The translations under genes were made by a program, and so were the position numbers. The notes below the pieces were generated by a model. That model was given only the letters and a program-made list of their open reading frames with translations. It ran no database searches and was not told the origin of the DNA. Shown here piece after piece: positions 17,072 through 26,058 of a stretch of DNA of 64,000 bases. The stretch's first letter is position 1. Every line of letters starts with the position of its first letter. The DNA comes from Gaiellaceae bacterium (lineage in GTDB: Bacteria > Actinomycetota > Thermoleophilia > Gaiellales > Gaiellaceae), in the NCBI GenBank assembly GCA_021323315.1, contig JAJTCQ010000001.1, positions 1-64,000 on the forward strand, given 5' to 3'.

Positions 17072-17758
17072 TCAGGCTGCGCGGACGTAGATGCCGTCGG
17101 CGGCGCGCTCGGTGATCGGCCGCTCGGCGCCGTCGACGGTGATCACGAGCTGGCCCGCCGCCGGTTGGGCGGAGACGACCGCGACCTGGGATCCCGGCAC
17201 GAGCCCCTCGTCGTAGAACCAGTGCAGGAGGTCGCCGTCATGCTCTGCGAGCCGGACGATCTGCCCGTCACGACCGACCGGGAGCTCCGCGAGCGCAACG
17301 AGCTCCGCGTTCTCGGACTGCTCGAACGCGGTATCGACGGGCCAGCCGTGCGGGCAGCGGTCGGGGTTGCCGAGCCGCTCGTTGATCCGCTCGATCATGT
17401 CGTCGGTGAAGGTGTCGCCGAGCTCGTCTGCGTGCACGTGCGACTCCGCTGCCGTATAGCCCATGAAATCGGTGAGAAAGCGCTCGATGATCCGATGCTT
17501 GCGCACGACCCGGCGCGCTCGCTCGGCGCCGTCGGGCGTGAGGATCGCCTCCTTCTGCTCACCCCGTTCGACCAGGCCGTCGCTCTCGAGCCGCTTGAGC
17601 ATCTCGCCGGCCGACGCGCGGGAGACGCCGAGCATCTCCGCCACGCGCGACGCGATCGCGGTCGACCCGGTCGCCGGCCGATATTCGCCGATCGGAAACG
17701 CGAGGAAGTAGATCGTCTCCAGGTACTCGTCGACGGAGTGCCCGGCCATGGTGGCCAT
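17072..17758 (-). CDS. DtxR/MntR-family metal-dependent transcriptional regulator
   Basis: VDEYLETIYFLAFPIGEYRPATGSTAIASRVAEMLGVSRASAGEMLKRLESDGLVE...VRKHRIIERFLTDFMGYTAAESHVHADELGDTFTDDMIERINERLGNPDRCPHGWPV; FeoA-like C-terminus. Confidence 0.93.
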   Translation of the reverse strand: MATMAGHSVDEYLETIYFLAFPIGEYRPATGSTAIASRVAEMLGVSRASAGEMLKRLESDGLVERGEQKEAILTPDGAERARRVVRKHRIIERFLTDFMGYTAAESHVHADELGDTFTDDMIERINERLGNPDRCPHGWPVDTAFEQSENAELVALAELPVGRDGQIVRLAEHDGDLLHWFYDEGLVPGSQVAVVSAQPAAGQLVITVDGAERPITERAADGIYVRAA

Positions 17759-17787
17759 TGTAAAGGCCGGACTCGCCTGGCCTCCGG

Positions 17788-19404
17788 CTACTCCGTCGCG
17801 CCGAGCTCCCAGGCATTGCGCCAAGACAGCAGGTAGACGAGCGGCGCTGCGATGACGATGAGGAGCAGCGCCGAGGGCGCGACCTCGGAGTACGCACCGA
17901 TCGAAGTTCCCTTCCAGATCTCGGTCGCGAGGGTCTCGAACCCGATGGGCTTGAGCAGGAGCGTCGCCGGAAGTTCCTTGATCGTGCTCAGGAAGACGAG
18001 TGCGGCACCGGCGAGCACGCCCGAACGCGCGAGCGGGAGCACGACCGCGGTCATCGCGCCGACCGGCCGTCGGCCGAGCGATCGCGCGGCCTCCTCGAGC
18101 CGGGGGCTCACCGCATCGAGCGAGGCGCGCGTCGAGGCCAGCCCGTACGGCATGAAGCGGATGACGTAGGCGACGAGCAGGAGGCCGAGGCTCTGGTAGA
18201 CGGGCGCGCCGATGCGCGCTCCGACGAAGACGAGCGCGAGCGCGACGGCGATCCCCGGGAGCGCGCTCGGCAGGAGCGTCAGGCGCTCCAGCCAGCGCGA
18301 GAGGGCCGACGGGTAGCGCCATGCCAGCACAGCAGCAGGAAGGACAACGATCGCCGCGACGAGAGCCGTCGCCGTAGCCATCGAGGCAGAGCCGACCGCC
18401 GCCGACCAGTCCACGCCCGCCCGGCCCGTGATCGGGTCGGCGCTGAACGACCACCAGGCCAGGACGCCGACGGGAAGGACGAGGAACAGGCCGATCAACG
18501 TCGCGCAGAAGACGAGAGCGGGCCAGCGCCACCAGCCGAGATTCGTCACCTTGCCTGCTCGCCCCGCGCCGGGCGTGCTGCGATAGACGGGGCCGCGAAG
18601 CCTGAACCGCGACGCGACGAGAACGATTGCGAGCGCGAGCGCGAGGAGTGCCAGCGCGAGGAGTGCGGCGGACTCGAGCGCGAGGAGCGACTCGTAGCGG
18701 ACGTAGATGCCCGTGGTGAGCGTCGAGTAGCCCATCAGCGATACGACGCCGAAGTCGGAGAGGACGTAGAGCGCGACGAGAAGCGATGCGGCCGCGAGGG
18801 ACGGGCGGATCGCGGGCAGCGTCACCCGTGTGAGCACGCGGAAGCGTCCGGCGCCGAGACTGCGCGCCGCCTCCTCTGCCGATGCGTCGGCGCTTCGGAG
18901 ACCGGCCGCGGCCAGGAGGTACACGTACGGGTACGTCGAGAGCGTGAGCGCGACGAGCGCTCCCCAATAGCCGGTGACCTCGGGAAGCCGCTCCACGCCG
19001 AGTGGCTCGAGCGCCTCCTGGACGAGCCCGCGAGGCGCGAAGGCGCCGAGCAGGGCCAGCGCTGCCACGAAGCTCGGGATGACGAGCGGGAGTGACGCGG
19101 CGATCCCCCAGAGGCGCCGGCCGGGGAGATCGGTGCGAACGACGAGCCAGGCCAGCGGCACGCCGACGACGAGCGTCGCAACGACGACGCCGAAGGCGAG
19201 GACGGCCGTGTCCAGCGCCAGCTCGACCGTCGTCGAGGCAGGGGCGAGCGCGCGAGCTGCGGCGTCGGCCGAGAGGGCGCGGAGCGCCAGGTACGCGACG
19301 GGGAGGATCGCGCCCAGTGCGACCAGCCCGGCGAGCGTGACGAGCAGCCGCGGTGCGCGGCGACCGTGGGACGAGACCGCGGTCGCCGCGCCCGCAGCGG
19401 TCAC
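17788..19404 (-). CDS. Iron ABC transporter permease (FbpB-like, fused double permease)
   Basis: Two binding-protein-dependent permease domains, ~12 TM segments; GTG start overlaps the SBP stop. Confidence 0.85.
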   Translation of the reverse strand: MTAAGAATAVSSHGRRAPRLLVTLAGLVALGAILPVAYLALRALSADAAARALAPASTTVELALDTAVLAFGVVVATLVVGVPLAWLVVRTDLPGRRLWGIAASLPLVIPSFVAALALLGAFAPRGLVQEALEPLGVERLPEVTGYWGALVALTLSTYPYVYLLAAAGLRSADASAEEAARSLGAGRFRVLTRVTLPAIRPSLAAASLLVALYVLSDFGVVSLMGYSTLTTGIYVRYESLLALESAALLALALLALALAIVLVASRFRLRGPVYRSTPGAGRAGKVTNLGWWRWPALVFCATLIGLFLVLPVGVLAWWSFSADPITGRAGVDWSAAVGSASMATATALVAAIVVLPAAVLAWRYPSALSRWLERLTLLPSALPGIAVALALVFVGARIGAPVYQSLGLLLVAYVIRFMPYGLASTRASLDAVSPRLEEAARSLGRRPVGAMTAVVLPLARSGVLAGAALVFLSTIKELPATLLLKPIGFETLATEIWKGTSIGAYSEVAPSALLLIVIAAPLVYLLSWRNAWELGATE

Positions 19405-20423
19405 TTGAGGTAGCCCTCCTCGAGGAGCATCCGCACCGCCGGCGTGAGGTCCGCAGACAGACGCCCGAGGATGTACTTCGGGCCCTTGATGGTCGAGAGC
19501 GGTCGCAGGCCGGGCCTGCGGGGGACGCCGTCGATGAGCGGATACTCCGCCGCGCCGGGCCCGCGTGCGATGAAGCGCTGCGCCCACTTCGAGAGCAGGA
19601 AGTCGACGAAGCGCTGGGCGGCGGTGGCCTTCTGCGTCGACGAGACGATGCCGACGCCCGCCGCGAGCACGAGGTTGCCGGGGTCGCCGTCGCGGAACCA
19701 GTGGTTCCTCACGGGCAGATCCGGGGTCTCGGCGAGGAGGTTGTAGAGGTAGTAGTGGTTTACGAGGCCGACCTCCACGTCACCGCGTCCGACTGCCTGG
19801 ACGACGGTCGTGTTGTTCGGGTACAAGCGAACGTCGTTCTCCTCGAGCCCGCGGAGCCACGCGCGGACGCGCGCCTCACCGTAGAGATGGATCGTCGCCC
19901 CGAGAAACGCCTGGAAGGACGCGTTCGTGGGGGCGATGCCGATCTTCCCCTTCCACCGCGGGCTGGTCAGCCCCCAGACCGATGCCGGGAGCTCGCCCTG
20001 CTGCAGCTCGTTCGTGTTGTAGACGAGGACCCGCGAGCGCCCGCTCGTGCCGACCCAGCGTCGACTGCGCGTGGAGAACCGCGCCGGCACCTTGCCGATC
20101 GTCGCCTGGGAGAGTCGCGCCAGGAGGCCCCGTGCCCCGACGAGACCGAGCGTGCCGGGCTCCTGCGACCAGTAGATGTCCGCAGGGCTGTTCCTGCCTT
20201 CCTCCACGAGCGCAGTTGCGAGCGTGGTCGACGACGCGTAGCGGACCTTGAGTTCGATCCCCGTGTCGCGCGTGAACCGATCCATGATCGGCTTCACGAG
20301 CCGCTCCTCGCGGCCCGAGTAGATCGTGAGCGACGTGCTCTGGCTCGGCGCCGTAGCCGCGCCGGTCGCGAGGGAGAGAGCGGCCACCACGGCCGCGAGC
20401 ACCACCACCGACACCTTCTTCAC
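19401..20423 (-). CDS. Iron(III) ABC transporter substrate-binding protein (FbpA/FutA-like)
   Basis: Signal peptide; LTIYSGREERLVKPIMDRFTRDTGIELKVRYASSTTLATALVEEGRNSPADIYWSQEPGTLGLV. Confidence 0.88.
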   Translation of the reverse strand: MKKVSVVVLAAVVAALSLATGAATAPSQSTSLTIYSGREERLVKPIMDRFTRDTGIELKVRYASSTTLATALVEEGRNSPADIYWSQEPGTLGLVGARGLLARLSQATIGKVPARFSTRSRRWVGTSGRSRVLVYNTNELQQGELPASVWGLTSPRWKGKIGIAPTNASFQAFLGATIHLYGEARVRAWLRGLEENDVRLYPNNTTVVQAVGRGDVEVGLVNHYYLYNLLAETPDLPVRNHWFRDGDPGNLVLAAGVGIVSSTQKATAAQRFVDFLLSKWAQRFIARGPGAAEYPLIDGVPRRPGLRPLSTIKGPKYILGRLSADLTPAVRMLLEEGYLK

Positions 20424-20500: not shown

Positions 20501-21505
20501 TCAGTCGAGGACCGGCACACGCCCCTGATGCACGCGAATCGAGACGCGGGTGCCGAGGTCGACGACCTCCGTGGACGGCCGCTGCGAGACGAGCTCCACC
20601 CCGTCGAGGAGGACGCGGTAGAAGACGTCGTGACCGCGGAACTCCCGCGCGACCACCTCGGCTGCTCCGCTGGGGCTCGGCTCCAGCTCCAGGAGCTCCG
20701 GGCGCACGAGCACCTGCGCGGCATGGGCAGAGCTCGCGCCGTTCGCGGGAAACGCACCGAGCGCCGTCTCGACACGGCCGGCGACGACGCGTCCGTGAAG
20801 CACGTTGGCTGCGCCGACGAACTCGGCCGCCCAGCGCGATGCGGGCGCGAAGTAGAGCTGCTCGGCAGTGCCCTCCTGGACGATCGCGCCGTCGCGCATA
20901 AGCGCGATCCGGTCGGCGAGTGAGAACGCCTCCTCCCGGTCGTGCGTGACGAGCAGTACCGTGACACCGAGCGGTCGGATGATGTCGGTCACCTCCGCGC
21001 GGAGCGACTCGCGGAGGAACGGGTCGACGTTCGACCACGGCTCGTCCAGCAGCACGAGCTCCGGTGCGGGGGCAAGGGCGCGGGCGAGCGCGACGCGCTG
21101 CTGCTGGCCGCCCGAGAGCTCGTGCGGGAAGCGCCTCTCGAGCCCTTCCAGACGTGCGAGCGCGAGCAGCTCGGGGACGCGCGTCGCGCGCTGCTGTCGC
21201 GGAAGGCCGAAGCCGACGTTCGCCGCGACCGTGAGGTGCGGAAACAGTGCGTAGTCTTGGAAGACCATCCCGACCCGCCTCGCCTCCGGCGCCACCCACG
21301 CGCTCCCGGCGACGATGCGGCCGTCGACCTCGATCGATCCGCGATCGGGCCGCTCGAAGCCGGCGATGAGCCGTAGGAGGGTCGTCTTCCCGCAGCCGGA
21401 CGGGCCGAGAAGCGCAACGACCTCCCCTCGCCCGACGCAGAGGGACGCGTCGTCGACGGCCGCGACGGCACCGAACCGCTTGGTCACGCCGTCCAGGCGG
21501 ATCAT
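20501..21505 (-). CDS. Iron ABC transporter ATP-binding protein (FbpC-like)
   Basis: MIRLDGVTKRFGAVAAVDDASL...LLGPSGCGKTTLLRLIAGFERPDRG...LSGGQQQRVALARALAPAPELVLLDEPWSNVD. Alternative ATG at 21517 lies inside the operator. Confidence 0.92.
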   Translation of the reverse strand: MIRLDGVTKRFGAVAAVDDASLCVGRGEVVALLGPSGCGKTTLLRLIAGFERPDRGSIEVDGRIVAGSAWVAPEARRVGMVFQDYALFPHLTVAANVGFGLPRQQRATRVPELLALARLEGLERRFPHELSGGQQQRVALARALAPAPELVLLDEPWSNVDPFLRESLRAEVTDIIRPLGVTVLLVTHDREEAFSLADRIALMRDGAIVQEGTAEQLYFAPASRWAAEFVGAANVLHGRVVAGRVETALGAFPANGASSAHAAQVLVRPELLELEPSPSGAAEVVAREFRGHDVFYRVLLDGVELVSQRPSTEVVDLGTRVSIRVHQGRVPVLD

Positions 21506-21516
21506 CGAGCAGTCCA

Positions 21517-21534
21517 TGTAAGGGACACCTTACA
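21517..21534. promoter_or_regulatory. Palindromic operator candidate upstream of the iron ABC ATPase gene
   Basis: TGTAAGG-GACA-CCTTACA, perfect 7-bp inverted repeat. Confidence 0.7.
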
Positions 21535-21598: not shown

Positions 21599-23530
21599 GT
21601 GTCTTACGCCGAGGTCTACCCGCTGGTCACGGCCCGCGCGCTCGCGCGGGCCTTCACGTACCGCGTGCCAGACGACGTCACGCGTGGCGACGTCGTGTCG
21701 GTCGGCCTCGGCGGCCGGCGCGTGCGAGGGGTCGTGGTGGACGTCGGGGTCGACCCGCCCGCCGGCATCGACATCGCGGAGGCGGGTGCGGTCGTGGATC
21801 GGGTTCCGGCTCGACTCGTCGAGCTCGCGCTGTGGCTGGCCGACTACTACGGCTCCACGCCGGCGCGCGCTCTGGCGCTCGTCGCTCCGCATGCCGCGGC
21901 CCGGCGCGGAGCGCCGCGGGAGCCCTGTGCACGTGACGCGCTCGAGGGTGAGCCCGAGCCGGCCCAGCTCACGCAGGCGCAGCGCTCGGCAGTTGCGCGG
22001 ATCATCGGCGCCCTCGCCGACGCGAGCGGTGGACACGTGCTCCTCCACGGGCCGACCGGGAGCGGCAAGACCGAGGTCTACCTCCAGGCCGCCGCGGCGG
22101 CGCTCGAGCGGGGGCGGGGCGTCATCGTGCTCGTTCCGGAGATCGCCCTCACGCCCCAGACGTTCGGCCGCTTCCGTGCGCGCTTCGGCGACCGCGTCGC
22201 CGTCCTCCACTCGGCGCTGACAGACGCGGAACGACGTGACGAGCGCGAGCGGATCTCCTCCGGCGCCGCGCCGGTCGTGGTCGGCGCCCGCTCGGCAGTC
22301 TTCGCGCCGGTTGCCCGCCTCGGCCTCGTCGTCGTCGACGAGGAGCACGACGCCTCCTTCAAGCAGGAGTCGGATCCCCGCTACGACGCGAGAACCGTCG
22401 CAGCGAAGCGCGCCGCGCTGGAGGGCGCCGTGGCCGTCTACGGGAGTGCGACACCGCGGGTGGAGAGCTGGTCCCGCCTCGAGCGGCTCGCGCTTCCCTC
22501 GCGGATCGGGGCGCCGCTGCCGACCGTGAAGCTGGTCGACCTCCGGCGCGAGGCGGGGTATCCGCTCTCCGCACCTCTTCTCGCCGAGCTCTCGGCGGTC
22601 GAGCAACGCGGCGGCAAGGCCATCCTCCTCCTCAATCGGCGCGGAATCTCCGGCGCCGTCCACTGCAGGTCGTGCGGCGTCACGCGGCGTTGCCGCAGCT
22701 GCGACATCGCACTGACTCTGCACTCGGACGGGCGTCTCCACTGCCACCACTGCGGCTTCTCCGTCGAGATGCCGGAGGCGTGCCCGGACTGCGGCTCGGT
22801 CGAGCTCGCGCGGATCGGTGCGGGGACGCAGCGCCTCGACGCGGAGCTGGCCCGGCGGCTTCCGGGCCTCGAACGAATCCGCCTGGACGCCGACACCGCG
22901 GCGAGGACCGGCGCGCTCCGCGAGGCGCTCGAGAGCTTTGCGTCCGCCAGATCGGCGGTGCTGATCGGGACGCAGATGGTGGCGAAGGGGCACCACTTCT
23001 CGGGCGTCGAGGTCGCGGCGGTCGTCGACGCCGACGCGGGGCTCGCATTCCCGGACTTCCGCTCGGAAGAGCGGACCTTCCAGCTCGTCACGCAGCTCGC
23101 CGGCCGCAGCGGCCGGGACGCACCAGGGCGCGTCATCGTGCAGACGTTCCAGCCGGAGGCCACGCCGTTTACCTATGTCCTCCGGCACGACGTCGCCGGC
23201 TACCTCGCCTACGAGCTCGCGCGGCGCGAGGAGCTCTCCTACCCACCTTTTTCACATCTTGTTTCACTCGTCGTCTCAGGACCTGACCCGGATCCCGTCA
23301 GGCGGGCGCTGCGAGAGCTGCGGGGAGCGCTCGACACGCCCGGCTCCCGCCTTCTCGGGCCGGCGCCCCTACTTCGCCTTCGTGGCCGCCATCGCGCTCA
23401 GCTGCTGGCGAAGACGACTTCGCCGCGGGCTTTCGCGACCCGTGCCGCAACCGTTCTCGCGCGCGCCGCTCCCGCGATGCGTCGCGACGGTTTGAGCGCC
23501 GTCGTCGACGTCGATCCGCAGTCCCCCTAG
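21599..23530 (+). CDS. priA: Primosomal protein N' (PriA helicase)
   Basis: GPTGSGKTEVYLQA, DEEHDASFKQE, zinc-binding CRSCGVTRRCRSCDIALTLHSDGRLHCHHCGF...CPDCGS. Confidence 0.93.
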   Translation: MSYAEVYPLVTARALARAFTYRVPDDVTRGDVVSVGLGGRRVRGVVVDVGVDPPAGIDIAEAGAVVDRVPARLVELALWLADYYGSTPARALALVAPHAAARRGAPREPCARDALEGEPEPAQLTQAQRSAVARIIGALADASGGHVLLHGPTGSGKTEVYLQAAAAALERGRGVIVLVPEIALTPQTFGRFRARFGDRVAVLHSALTDAERRDERERISSGAAPVVVGARSAVFAPVARLGLVVVDEEHDASFKQESDPRYDARTVAAKRAALEGAVAVYGSATPRVESWSRLERLALPSRIGAPLPTVKLVDLRREAGYPLSAPLLAELSAVEQRGGKAILLLNRRGISGAVHCRSCGVTRRCRSCDIALTLHSDGRLHCHHCGFSVEMPEACPDCGSVELARIGAGTQRLDAELARRLPGLERIRLDADTAARTGALREALESFASARSAVLIGTQMVAKGHHFSGVEVAAVVDADAGLAFPDFRSEERTFQLVTQLAGRSGRDAPGRVIVQTFQPEATPFTYVLRHDVAGYLAYELARREELSYPPFSHLVSLVVSGPDPDPVRRALRELRGALDTPGSRLLGPAPLLRLRGRHRAQLLAKTTSPRAFATRAATVLARAAPAMRRDGLSAVVDVDPQSP

Positions 23531-23536
23531 CGGTCG

Positions 23537-23566
23537 TGGCCGAAACGGCCGTGTCCGTTTCGGCCA
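23537..23566. terminator. Perfect inverted repeat after priA (terminator or operator)
   Basis: TGGCCGAAACGG-CCGTGT-CCGTTTCGGCCA, 12-bp perfect stem. Confidence 0.6.
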
Positions 23567-23625
23567 ATTGCGTCGCGGTTCGTGCACGGGTAGACCGGCG
23601 ACGCACAGCGATCGAAGGAGGCGTG

Positions 23626-23967
23626 ATGAAGCGACTTGCGTTGCTCGTGCTCATCGTGGTTGCCCTCGCCGTGAGTGCGACCGCGTGGGCAGGCACGTAC
23701 TCGTACGCGGGACACTCGTACTGGCCTGCCGGGCAGGCCCACTCCACCTGGTTCGCCTCGAGCTGGTGGAACAACATCTTCTACAAGACCGCGTCGTACG
23801 ACACGACGCTCACCTTCATCGACAACACGTCGTACGGTTGGCACTCGACCGTGCGCGGTTGGGCGACCTACCAGCAAACGCACTGGATGTCCTCGGCCGT
23901 GAAGAAGGCCCACTGCCGCGCGAACACGAGCGCTTTTTCATGGGCTGCATGCACTGCCTACAACTAG
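23626..23967 (+). CDS. Small secreted aromatic-rich protein, unknown function
   Basis: Shine-Dalgarno GGAGG, signal peptide MKRLALLVLIVVALAVSATAWA, mature part rich in W/Y/H/S with two Cys. Confidence 0.7.
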   Translation: MKRLALLVLIVVALAVSATAWAGTYSYAGHSYWPAGQAHSTWFASSWWNNIFYKTASYDTTLTFIDNTSYGWHSTVRGWATYQQTHWMSSAVKKAHCRANTSAFSWAACTAYN

Positions 23968-23977
23968 GAGGAAGACG

Positions 23978-24580
23978 ATGCTGAGACGTTTCCGGGCGCG
24001 ACACGTTGCAGTGCTGTTGGGCGCGCTCGTTGCGGGCGGTGCACTCGTTGGTGTAGTCGTAGCCGCCCAGGCTGGCCAGCCGGTGCCTCAGGGTCTCGCG
24101 GCGGCGATCGCGAACGAGCCGCTCGTCAAGGTGCTCGACTTGCCGGACGCGAGCGGAGCGCCCTCGCGGTCGATGTTCGTCCAGCCGACTTCAGCAGGGT
24201 TTCTCTGCATGTGGGATGCACCGAACGCGCTGTCGCGCATGCGGCAAGGCGGCTGCAATCCGAGCGACGACCCCCTTGCCGGTCGGTCGATCTCGGGCAG
24301 CCTCGCGTACGACGGCGGACCTGCGATCGACCGAGTCGACGACGCGCGACTCATCGGGCTGGCGGTCGCCGATACTGCACGCATTCACGTCGAGATGAGT
24401 GATGGGACGATCCGCACGGTCAAGCTGAAGAAAACGAAGGCGGGCTCGAACGAGTTCCAGGCGTTCGGCTACCGCTTCAAGAAGCAGGATCTCAAGAACG
24501 GGATCGGCCCGATCGCGATCGTCGCGTTCGACGCGAACGGCGTGGAGGTCGGGCGGCAGCCGACGGGCATCGGCGGCTGA
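23978..24580 (+). CDS. Secreted/membrane-anchored hypothetical protein
   Basis: SD AGGAGG; N-terminal hydrophobic helix LLGALVAGGALVGVVVAAQAG; C-terminal beta-rich domain. Confidence 0.7.
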   Translation: MLRRFRARHVAVLLGALVAGGALVGVVVAAQAGQPVPQGLAAAIANEPLVKVLDLPDASGAPSRSMFVQPTSAGFLCMWDAPNALSRMRQGGCNPSDDPLAGRSISGSLAYDGGPAIDRVDDARLIGLAVADTARIHVEMSDGTIRTVKLKKTKAGSNEFQAFGYRFKKQDLKNGIGPIAIVAFDANGVEVGRQPTGIGG

Positions 24581-24586
24581 GGGTCT

Positions 24587-24625
24587 GGCCATCGCGCGGC
24601 GGGCTAGACTCGCCGCGCGATGGCC
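24587..24625. repeat. 15-bp perfect inverted repeat spanning the def start codon
   Basis: GGCCATCGCGCGGCG-ggctagact-CGCCGCGCGATGGCC. Confidence 0.8.
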
Positions 24626-25255
24626 GACCACGACCACGATCACAGCCAGGATCACGGCGATCACGACCACGCCGATCACTACCACGGCGACGACGAGCAC
24701 GTCCACGACCACGCGGCTGACGAGCAGGAGCTCGAGCGCGAGGCGCGCAGGCTCCTCGCCCTCTCGCGGATTCGTCAATACGGCGACACGGCCCTCCGCA
24801 TGAAGGCGCGCGAGGTCGAGGTTTTCGACGCTGACCTCGAGCGCCTCGTCGCGCGAATGACCGCGCTCATGCACGAGGCGAACGGCGTCGGGCTCGCTGC
24901 GACGCAAATCGGAGTGCTGCGTCGGCTGTTCGTGTTCGTGGACGCCGGCGAAGACCGTGTGCTCGTCAACGCGACGATCACCAAGAGCTCGAAGGACACG
25001 GAGATCGACGACGAAGGCTGTCTGTCGCTGCGAGACGTGCTCGTTCCCGTCGAGCGGTCGAAGGCGGTCACGGTCGAGGGGCTCGACGTGCACGGCGAGC
25101 CCGTGACGCTCGAGCTCGAGCAGCCCTCCTCGCGGGTCGTACAGCATGAGCTCGACCACCTCGACGGCGTCCTGATCATCGATCGCACGGACGACGAGTC
25201 GCGACGCGCAGCGCTCGCCAGGCTCAGGCCGCAGCCCGTCCTCGGCGCGCGTTGA
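24620..25255 (+). CDS. def: Peptide deformylase with His/Asp-rich N-terminal extension
   Basis: MADHDHDHSQDHGDHDHADHYHGDDEHVHDH... then GVGLAATQIG, EGCLSL and QHELDHLDG. Confidence 0.93.
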   Translation: MADHDHDHSQDHGDHDHADHYHGDDEHVHDHAADEQELEREARRLLALSRIRQYGDTALRMKAREVEVFDADLERLVARMTALMHEANGVGLAATQIGVLRRLFVFVDAGEDRVLVNATITKSSKDTEIDDEGCLSLRDVLVPVERSKAVTVEGLDVHGEPVTLELEQPSSRVVQHELDHLDGVLIIDRTDDESRRAALARLRPQPVLGAR

Positions 25256-26058
25256 GGGCGTCGATCGCGGTCGCCGCGACCGCCCCGTTCGGCGCCGACG
25301 TCCTCGAACGGCTCGCGGCGACACACGAAGTCAAATCCGTCGTGACCCGCCCGGACGCACCGGCGGGCCGAGGGCGCAAGCTCGCGCCTTCCCCCGCCAA
25401 GCTCGCGGCCGAGCGACTGGGCGTCCCCGTGCTCGAGCCGGAGCGGCTGGAGCCGGGCCTCGATCTCGGCGCCTCCGTGGTCGTCGCGGTGGCCTACGGG
25501 CTGATCGTCCCCGACCTAGTGCTCGACGAGCGTCTCTGGCTGAACGTGCATCCGTCACTTCTTCCCCGTTGGCGCGGCGCCGCGCCGGTCGAGCGTGCGC
25601 TGATGGCGGGCGACTCCGAGATCGGCGTATCGATCATCAAGCTCGTGAAGGAGCTCGATGCAGGCCCGATCGCCGCGCAAGCCTCGTTCGCGGTCGAGCC
25701 CGAGGAGGACGCCGGCGCCGTGTTCACGCGTTCCGTCGAAGTTGCAGCCGACCTGCTCGACGGGGTGCTGGCCCAACCTGATCCGACGTTCCGCGAGCAG
25801 GAAGGCGAACCGACGTACGCCGCCAAGATCACAGCCGCGGATCGCCGTCTCGATCTCGATCGGCCCGCGCGCGAGCTCGTCGATCACGTTCGCGCGCTCT
25901 CACCGCACATCGGCGCCCGTGCGGATCTTCACGGGCGGGGGGTCACGATCTGGAAAGCGCGAGTGGGGAGTGACGGGCGGTTCGATCCCGTCGAGGTGCA
26001 GCCGGACGGAGGCCGTCGAATGACGTACGACGAATGGGTCCGCGGCCTGCGAGCGTAA
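25252..26058 (+). CDS. fmt: Methionyl-tRNA formyltransferase
   Basis: TTG start overlapping the def stop; WLNVHPSLLPRWRGAAPVERALMAGDSEIGVSIIKLVKELDAGPI. Confidence 0.93.
   Translation: MRASIAVAATAPFGADVLERLAATHEVKSVVTRPDAPAGRGRKLAPSPAKLAAERLGVPVLEPERLEPGLDLGASVVVAVAYGLIVPDLVLDERLWLNVHPSLLPRWRGAAPVERALMAGDSEIGVSIIKLVKELDAGPIAAQASFAVEPEEDAGAVFTRSVEVAADLLDGVLAQPDPTFREQEGEPTYAAKITAADRRLDLDRPARELVDHVRALSPHIGARADLHGRGVTIWKARVGSDGRFDPVEVQPDGGRRMTYDEWVRGLRA

Follow-up and report, generated by a model that had tools for sequence, protein, structure and literature searches.

Peptide deformylase (Def) is essential and a target of antibiotics, and its labile Fe2+ and its susceptibility to zinc poisoning are recognised to leave it vulnerable when oxidative, nitrosative, or zinc stress sets in. 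By the Irving-Williams order, peptides combining histidine with carboxylates should bind Fe2+ less readily than Zn, Cu, or Ni. The Salmonella Def is an Fe2+ enzyme that undergoes mismetallation with zinc in vivo, its zinc-bound form showing about 10% activity, and overexpression of Def relieves zinc stress (PMC7683392). In mononuclear iron enzymes, Def among them, H2O2 oxidises and releases the iron, and reloading of the site is possible (PMC8115020).

Histidine-rich stretches have been described on several other metal proteins. The Cu,Zn-superoxide dismutases (SODs) of the Haemophilus ducreyi type likewise carry a His-rich N-terminal extension on a metalloenzyme, a metal-binding domain interpreted as serving metal chaperoning (Battistoni 2001, as cited in PMC8382915), and metal binding by such a peptide is the subject of work cited in PMC8584440. 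The SODs are periplasmic Cu/Zn enzymes of an unrelated fold whose metal binding has been studied, whereas the Def tail described below is known from sequence. HxHxH-type stretches are also found in UreG, HypB, and the COG0523 GTPases, the one in UreG occurring where UreE is missing (PMC2770081); these proteins, however, are dedicated metallochaperones or insertases with GTPase domains, while Def is an end-user enzyme. Opisthokont nitrile hydratase beta-alpha fusions have a His-rich stretch (PMC3323583), and zinc transporters with (HX)n loops (CDF, ZIP, ZnuA) show the same kind of low-complexity His/acid sequence but transport rather than catalyse. A His-rich deformylase was not found in our full-text literature search, a provisional result, since papers were judged by title and abstract and few subscription sources were included; it agrees with the initial annotation of the locus, which had regarded His-rich tails as not known on Def.

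Results

The def product is an ordinary deformylase preceded by a His/Asp-rich tail

The window analysed here, a 64-kb stretch of DNA from a draft genome (53% complete, 1.5 Mb) of a Gaiellaceae bacterium from a soil actinobacterial lineage, contains the one def gene found in that genome (Table 1). Its product matched the Pfam family PF01327 over residues 50 to 195 (E=7e-44; 149.6 bits, cut-off 22.8) and scored above the NCBIfam cut-offs of NF001159 (158.9, cut-off 125) and TIGR00079 (124.1, cut-off 104). All three deformylase motifs (GVGLAATQ, EGCLS, and QHELDHLDG) are present, and C134, H176, E177, and H180 turned out to be invariant in 11 aligned sequences of relatives. The best sequence match in the PDB was the Thermotoga maritima PDF (1lme; E=3e-33), and the 50 Foldseek matches listed for the AlphaFold model, whose mean pLDDT was a modest 68.6, were all PDFs with a probability of 1.00. 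By domain, motifs, and fold the product is an ordinary peptide deformylase, predicted to remove the formyl group from N-formyl-Met peptides with Fe2+ (or Zn/Co/Ni) as the metal; it shares with known PDFs the full domain, the three motifs, the Cys and HExxH ligands, and the def-fmt operon, in keeping with its initial description as an otherwise typical deformylase. PF01327 was the sole domain detected in the Pfam search, and a G3E GTPase domain was absent, so the protein is not a metallochaperone GTPase of the COG0523/UreG/HypB kind.

The first 31 residues, MADHDHDHSQDHGDHDHADHYHGDDEHVHDH, contain 11 His, 10 Asp, and 1 Glu, a recount that bears out the 11 His and many Asp noted earlier, while the remaining 179 Def residues have only 4 His. 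With an assumed background of 2.3% His, the binomial probability of at least 11 His in 31 residues is 5e-11, and in the six frames of the window the tail is the sole 31-aa stop-free stretch with at least 8 His. The tract had originally been placed at 24620 to 24730; the His-rich segment is real, but the tract proper ends at 24712 and gives way to a linker. AlphaFold pLDDT was below 50 at residues 1 to 4 and 9 to 27, the tail being mostly predicted as disordered, and a helix was predicted with low confidence over residues 31 to 53. Solved PDFs align almost all from about residue 46 of Def; two matches begin at residue 27 and are taken to be expression tags, and no native His/Asp tail was found among the PDB sequence matches.

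Table 1. Features of the def locus in window coordinates
Feature	Position	Strand	Evidence or remarks
DtxR/MntR-type metal-dependent repressor with FeoA domain	17072..17767	-	PF02742, PF01325, PF04023
ABC permease, same FbpABC-type importer	17788..19470 (start not fixed)	-	PF00528, two stretches
FbpA-type ferric-iron-binding protein	19401..20423	-	PDB iron-binding proteins, E=9e-75 (7w3w) and others
ABC transporter ATPase, FbpABC-type ferric iron importer	20501..21517	-	PF00005; NF008513 ferric ABC ATPase and others below cut-off
priA	21599..23530	+	Conserved upstream neighbour of def
-10-type promoter box TAGACT	24605..24610	+	9 nt before def ATG; TANNNT conservation
def, peptide deformylase with His-rich N-terminal extension, 211 aa	24620..25255	+	ORF, PF01327, NF001159/TIGR00079, PDB 1lme
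His/Asp-rich tail, residues 1-31	24620..24712	+	11 His and 10 Asp; composition kept in 30/30 relatives
Acidic/Arg helical linker AADEQELEREARRLLALSR	24713..24769	+	Common to tail-less remainder of family; predicted helix
Def catalytic domain	24767..25204	+	Predicted ligands C134 in EGCLS (25013-25027), H176/H180 in HELDH (25145-25159)
fmt, methionyl-tRNA formyltransferase	25252..26058	+	Start overlaps def stop by 4 nt (TTGA); adjoins def in loci examined

The start codon lies upstream of the His tract

The def ORF opens with the codons ATG GCC GAC CAC GAC CAC GAT CAC. Between position 24620 and the catalytic domain there is no in-frame ATG, GTG, or TTG, the next being a Met codon at about 24800, within the first strand of the domain. 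The tail is therefore not an upstream misannotation of a Def of normal length, and the sequence itself closes the possibility, raised in the initial annotation, that translation begins downstream of the His tract. A TANNNT box was located 6 to 9 nt before the start in 93 of 103 related def genes (those with a usable 5' end from the family, order, and class of the window genome, the box-bearing start codon being preferred where several were possible); shuffled upstream sequences gave a mean count of 2.1 and a maximum of 7 in 500 trials. With this spacing, transcription is expected to begin at or beside the ATG, so that the def mRNA is probably leaderless, and the conserved leaderless promoter in turn fixes the start codon ahead of the His tract independently of the ORF. 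Given the absence of an alternative start and the conserved promoter box directly upstream, a start-codon artefact was rejected. In Gaiellales, the box can also serve to annotate promoters and start codons.

A perfect 15-bp inverted repeat, GGCCATCGCGCGGCG-GGCTAGACT-CGCCGCGCGATGGCC, occupies window positions 24587 to 24625; it is centred on the -10 box of def, includes the start codon, and may be an operator or a chance occurrence. Inverted repeats of 8 to 13 bp cover the same box in G036, G039, and G038, and the other genomes of the genus lack them. An inverted-repeat operator as a general feature of def was rejected: in the genus, just 4 genomes out of 11 have such a repeat.

The tail is retained throughout four genera

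A comparison of the N-termini of 105 def genes revealed a His tail in all 30 Def proteins of four genera: 11/11 in the window's own genus (g1), where all ten other genomes carry the tract, 7/7 in g10, 11/11 in g30 (counted over genomes with def read), and 1/1 in g11 (the one def read). Each tail has between 3 and 17 His, with two contigs ending inside the tract. Elsewhere in the family the tail was absent from 57 of 58 members, the exception being G085 of genus g32, with DDHGDHGEHGDH. The search for His-rich N-termini among Def homologues that had been proposed for this locus thus gave 30/30 in four genera and 1/58 in the rest of the family.

In the tree of the catalytic domain, g1 and g10 formed a supported clade and g30 another. 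A tree constrained to a single origin of the tail in g1, g10, g30, and g11 had a slightly higher likelihood (AU p = 0.56); such an origin is compatible with the sequences but not proven. G085 was nested within the tail-free g32 with strong support, which points to a separate gain, and the tree accordingly indicates at least one independent origin of the tail.

Other members of the family begin with a short acidic stretch (e.g., MAEIEGQVKDEQLDPE) followed by the same helix, EREARRRxALxQIRQYGD. Since this arrangement is common to the tail-less relatives, the tail was inserted ahead of a pre-existing acidic and helical segment. The His tract could then simply elaborate that segment, as part of an acidic low-complexity region that is charged, disordered (most of residues 1 to 27 are predicted so), and partly pH-sensitive, and that, independently of any metal, makes Def more soluble or guides it on the ribosome or on its substrates. 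We consider such a role rather unlikely: neither the alternation of H with [DE] nor the 3 to 17 His per tail would be needed for charge, for which Asp and Glu would suffice, and where such tracts can be recognised elsewhere in the genus, they sit on metal proteins (see below).

Outside the family, a stricter DNA pattern, which recovers about half of the known tails, yielded no His-tailed Def beyond the family in 297 genomes drawn from the phylum, and with this sensitivity absence elsewhere is not proven; its one Def was from the sister genus g10, and the other six places lacked Def motifs. A class-wide scan combining a short His motif with a Def motif was discarded as too noisy, 383 of 399 genomes being positive. 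A His-tailed Def on L144 (JAICUZ010000038.1), titled Burkholderiales bacterium, groups with genus g30 and probably reflects a mislabelled MAG or contig.

Amino acids rather than DNA are maintained in the tract

Minor wobble codons were used in the tract at frequencies like those of the catalytic domain (CAT, 13% versus 10%; GAT, 23% versus 17%; GAA, 12% versus 10%), which rules out a DNA microsatellite or a recent hexanucleotide expansion. For the N-terminal region of the close genomes G071, G080, and G081, pS was about 0.74 to 0.81 and pN 0.03 to 0.05; other pairs evolve faster, with pN/pS ratios of 0.2 to 1.1, all these values being subject to the ambiguity of register inside the repetitive tract. 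Free codon wobble together with low pN argues that the amino acids are selected and not the DNA, and on this evidence the tail is a selected protein feature. Its composition and the H-[DE] alternation are kept, while its length and exact order vary, as expected for a disordered ligand-rich tail.

The rapid change in length and order, and the pN/pS near 1 of some pairs, are also what a neutral low-complexity expansion without function would produce; with a wrong start codon, the tract would not be translated at all. Both are highly improbable given the 30/30 retention in four genera, the wobble diversity, the low pN/pS of the closest genomes, and the conserved leaderless promoter directly upstream.

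The priA-def-fmt locus is associated with metal regulation and import

In the window, genes for a metal importer and a DtxR/MntR-type repressor lie divergent from priA, on the minus strand. A repressor of this type stands beside priA-def-fmt in 32 of the 35 family members with contigs reaching that far, and in none of 4 genomes outside the family; judged by its gene content, the locus is metal-linked throughout the family. Between repressor and priA, the 19 tail-bearing genomes have FbpABC or FTR1 (PF03239) in 12 cases, a ZIP-like importer in 6, and none found in 1, whereas 12 of the 18 tail-less genomes have ZIP and none has an iron importer (ZIP-like calls being PF02535 matches just under the cut-off). 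The shift to iron import coincides with the tail-bearing g1, g10, and g11. Because g1 and g10 share ancestry, the association between iron importer and tail cannot be read as causal. The exchange of FbpABC, FTR1, or ZIP at one place between lineages constitutes a natural series of metal-transporter replacement.

The confinement of ferric importers beside def to tail-bearing genomes (12/19 versus 0/18) would suit a tail that acts as a decoy for zinc (or Cu/Ni), trapping the tighter-binding metals and guarding the Fe2+ site from mismetallation instead of supplying metal. The affinity of (H[DE])n peptides for Zn, Cu, and Ni would favour it as well, and so would the low activity of Zn-Def (about 10% of that of Fe-Def), zinc mismetallation in vivo, and the relief of zinc stress by extra Def (PMC7683392). 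We nevertheless hold a decoy to be unlikely, given that the importer association is confounded by ancestry and that one tail per Def makes a small buffer against cellular zinc.

The position of the locus beside a metal-dependent repressor and an importer could also suggest that zinc or iron, once bound by the tail, alters the activity, oligomerisation, or localisation of Def and so couples N-terminal processing to metal status. This seems very unlikely, since the low pLDDT gives no structural hint of a defined interaction between tail and catalytic domain and the variable length of the tail argues against a defined switch.

Two small exported-looking ORFs of 143 and 200 aa lie between priA and def (window 23536-24580); the former had no NCBIfam match and the latter no Pfam match, and homologues were seen in this position in only part of the genus.

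Other HDHDH tracts in the genus

A scan for the HDHDH pattern gave 4 to 21 sites in each genome. Of the sites read, most fell in out-of-frame or antisense ORFs, and chance occurrences of short motifs are thus not negligible. Two metal proteins, a cation-efflux transporter and the alpha subunit of nitrile hydratase, are among the other matches recognisable as genes. The nitrile hydratase alpha tracts are N-terminal, MSHDHDHDHE and MSHHDHDHSHE, in G030 (L129, about 1195-1839) and G034 (L133, about 773-1406). Like Def, this is a metalloenzyme with an HDHDH tract, but it is a Co/Fe enzyme, its tract is much shorter, and the function of that tract is putative. A search of the genus for COG0523/cobW gave marginal matches only, in 3 of the 11 genomes; the tail may conceivably stand in for a metallochaperone that is missing.

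Discussion

The chemistry of (H[DE])n sequences, together with the repressor and importer neighbourhood, makes it likely that the tail binds divalent metal. Of the metal-binding interpretation given in the initial annotation, the genuine, translated, lineage-conserved tail stands and binding is chemically very likely, while loading of the active site by the tail is putative. The tail may be pictured as an intrinsically disordered, metal-binding segment fused in cis to an otherwise ordinary Def, in which alternating His and Asp/Glu would provide a number of weak sites at which Zn2+ and similar divalent ions (Fe2+, Co2+, Ni2+) could exchange, and which a short helix would tether to the active-site domain. 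Exchangeable metal would then be kept near an enzyme that readily loses its Fe2+ to oxidants, and apo-Def could be refilled quickly from the metal held by the tail.

That the tail is a reservoir for the self-metallation or remetallation of Def is the reading we tentatively prefer, at somewhat less than even confidence, with metal binding, the identity of the metal, and its transfer to the active site all inferred. In its favour, the tail has been lost in none of the four genera, its amino acids are selected, and its start codon is fixed; the metal repressor and importer beside the operon, the metal proteins among the other HDHDH genes, the loss and reloading of iron in mononuclear iron enzymes, and the SOD and UreG precedents also count for it. 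Against it, Fe2+, the activating metal of Def in the species studied, ranks below Zn, Cu, and Ni in the preference of His and carboxylate ligands, which makes a zinc decoy as logical as an iron reservoir. Tail-less close relatives, that is, most of the family, evidently manage, and the repressor and importer neighbourhood, being common to tail-less genomes, is not specific to the tail. Ligand chemistry favours the decoy if the native metal is iron, and the reservoir if it is zinc, cobalt, or nickel. We place the reservoir ahead of the decoy because the precedents, His-rich tails on metal proteins, point that way.

More broadly, and with less assurance than we attach to the reservoir, an in-cis metal buffer or chaperone on Def may possibly couple protein maturation to changes in metal supply, or protect it from them, at a locus shared with a metal repressor and importer; if true, it would be without known precedent among deformylases. 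As a device, the His-rich tail is already familiar from other metalloenzymes; on Def, with lineage-wide retention and repeated gain, it is new as far as we have checked. A lineage whose Def carries a metal-binding tail would offer a natural test of how an enzyme acquires and retains the right metal without a separate chaperone, with the tail-less sister genera as ready controls, and the tail could prove a transferable module for keeping labile iron enzymes active.
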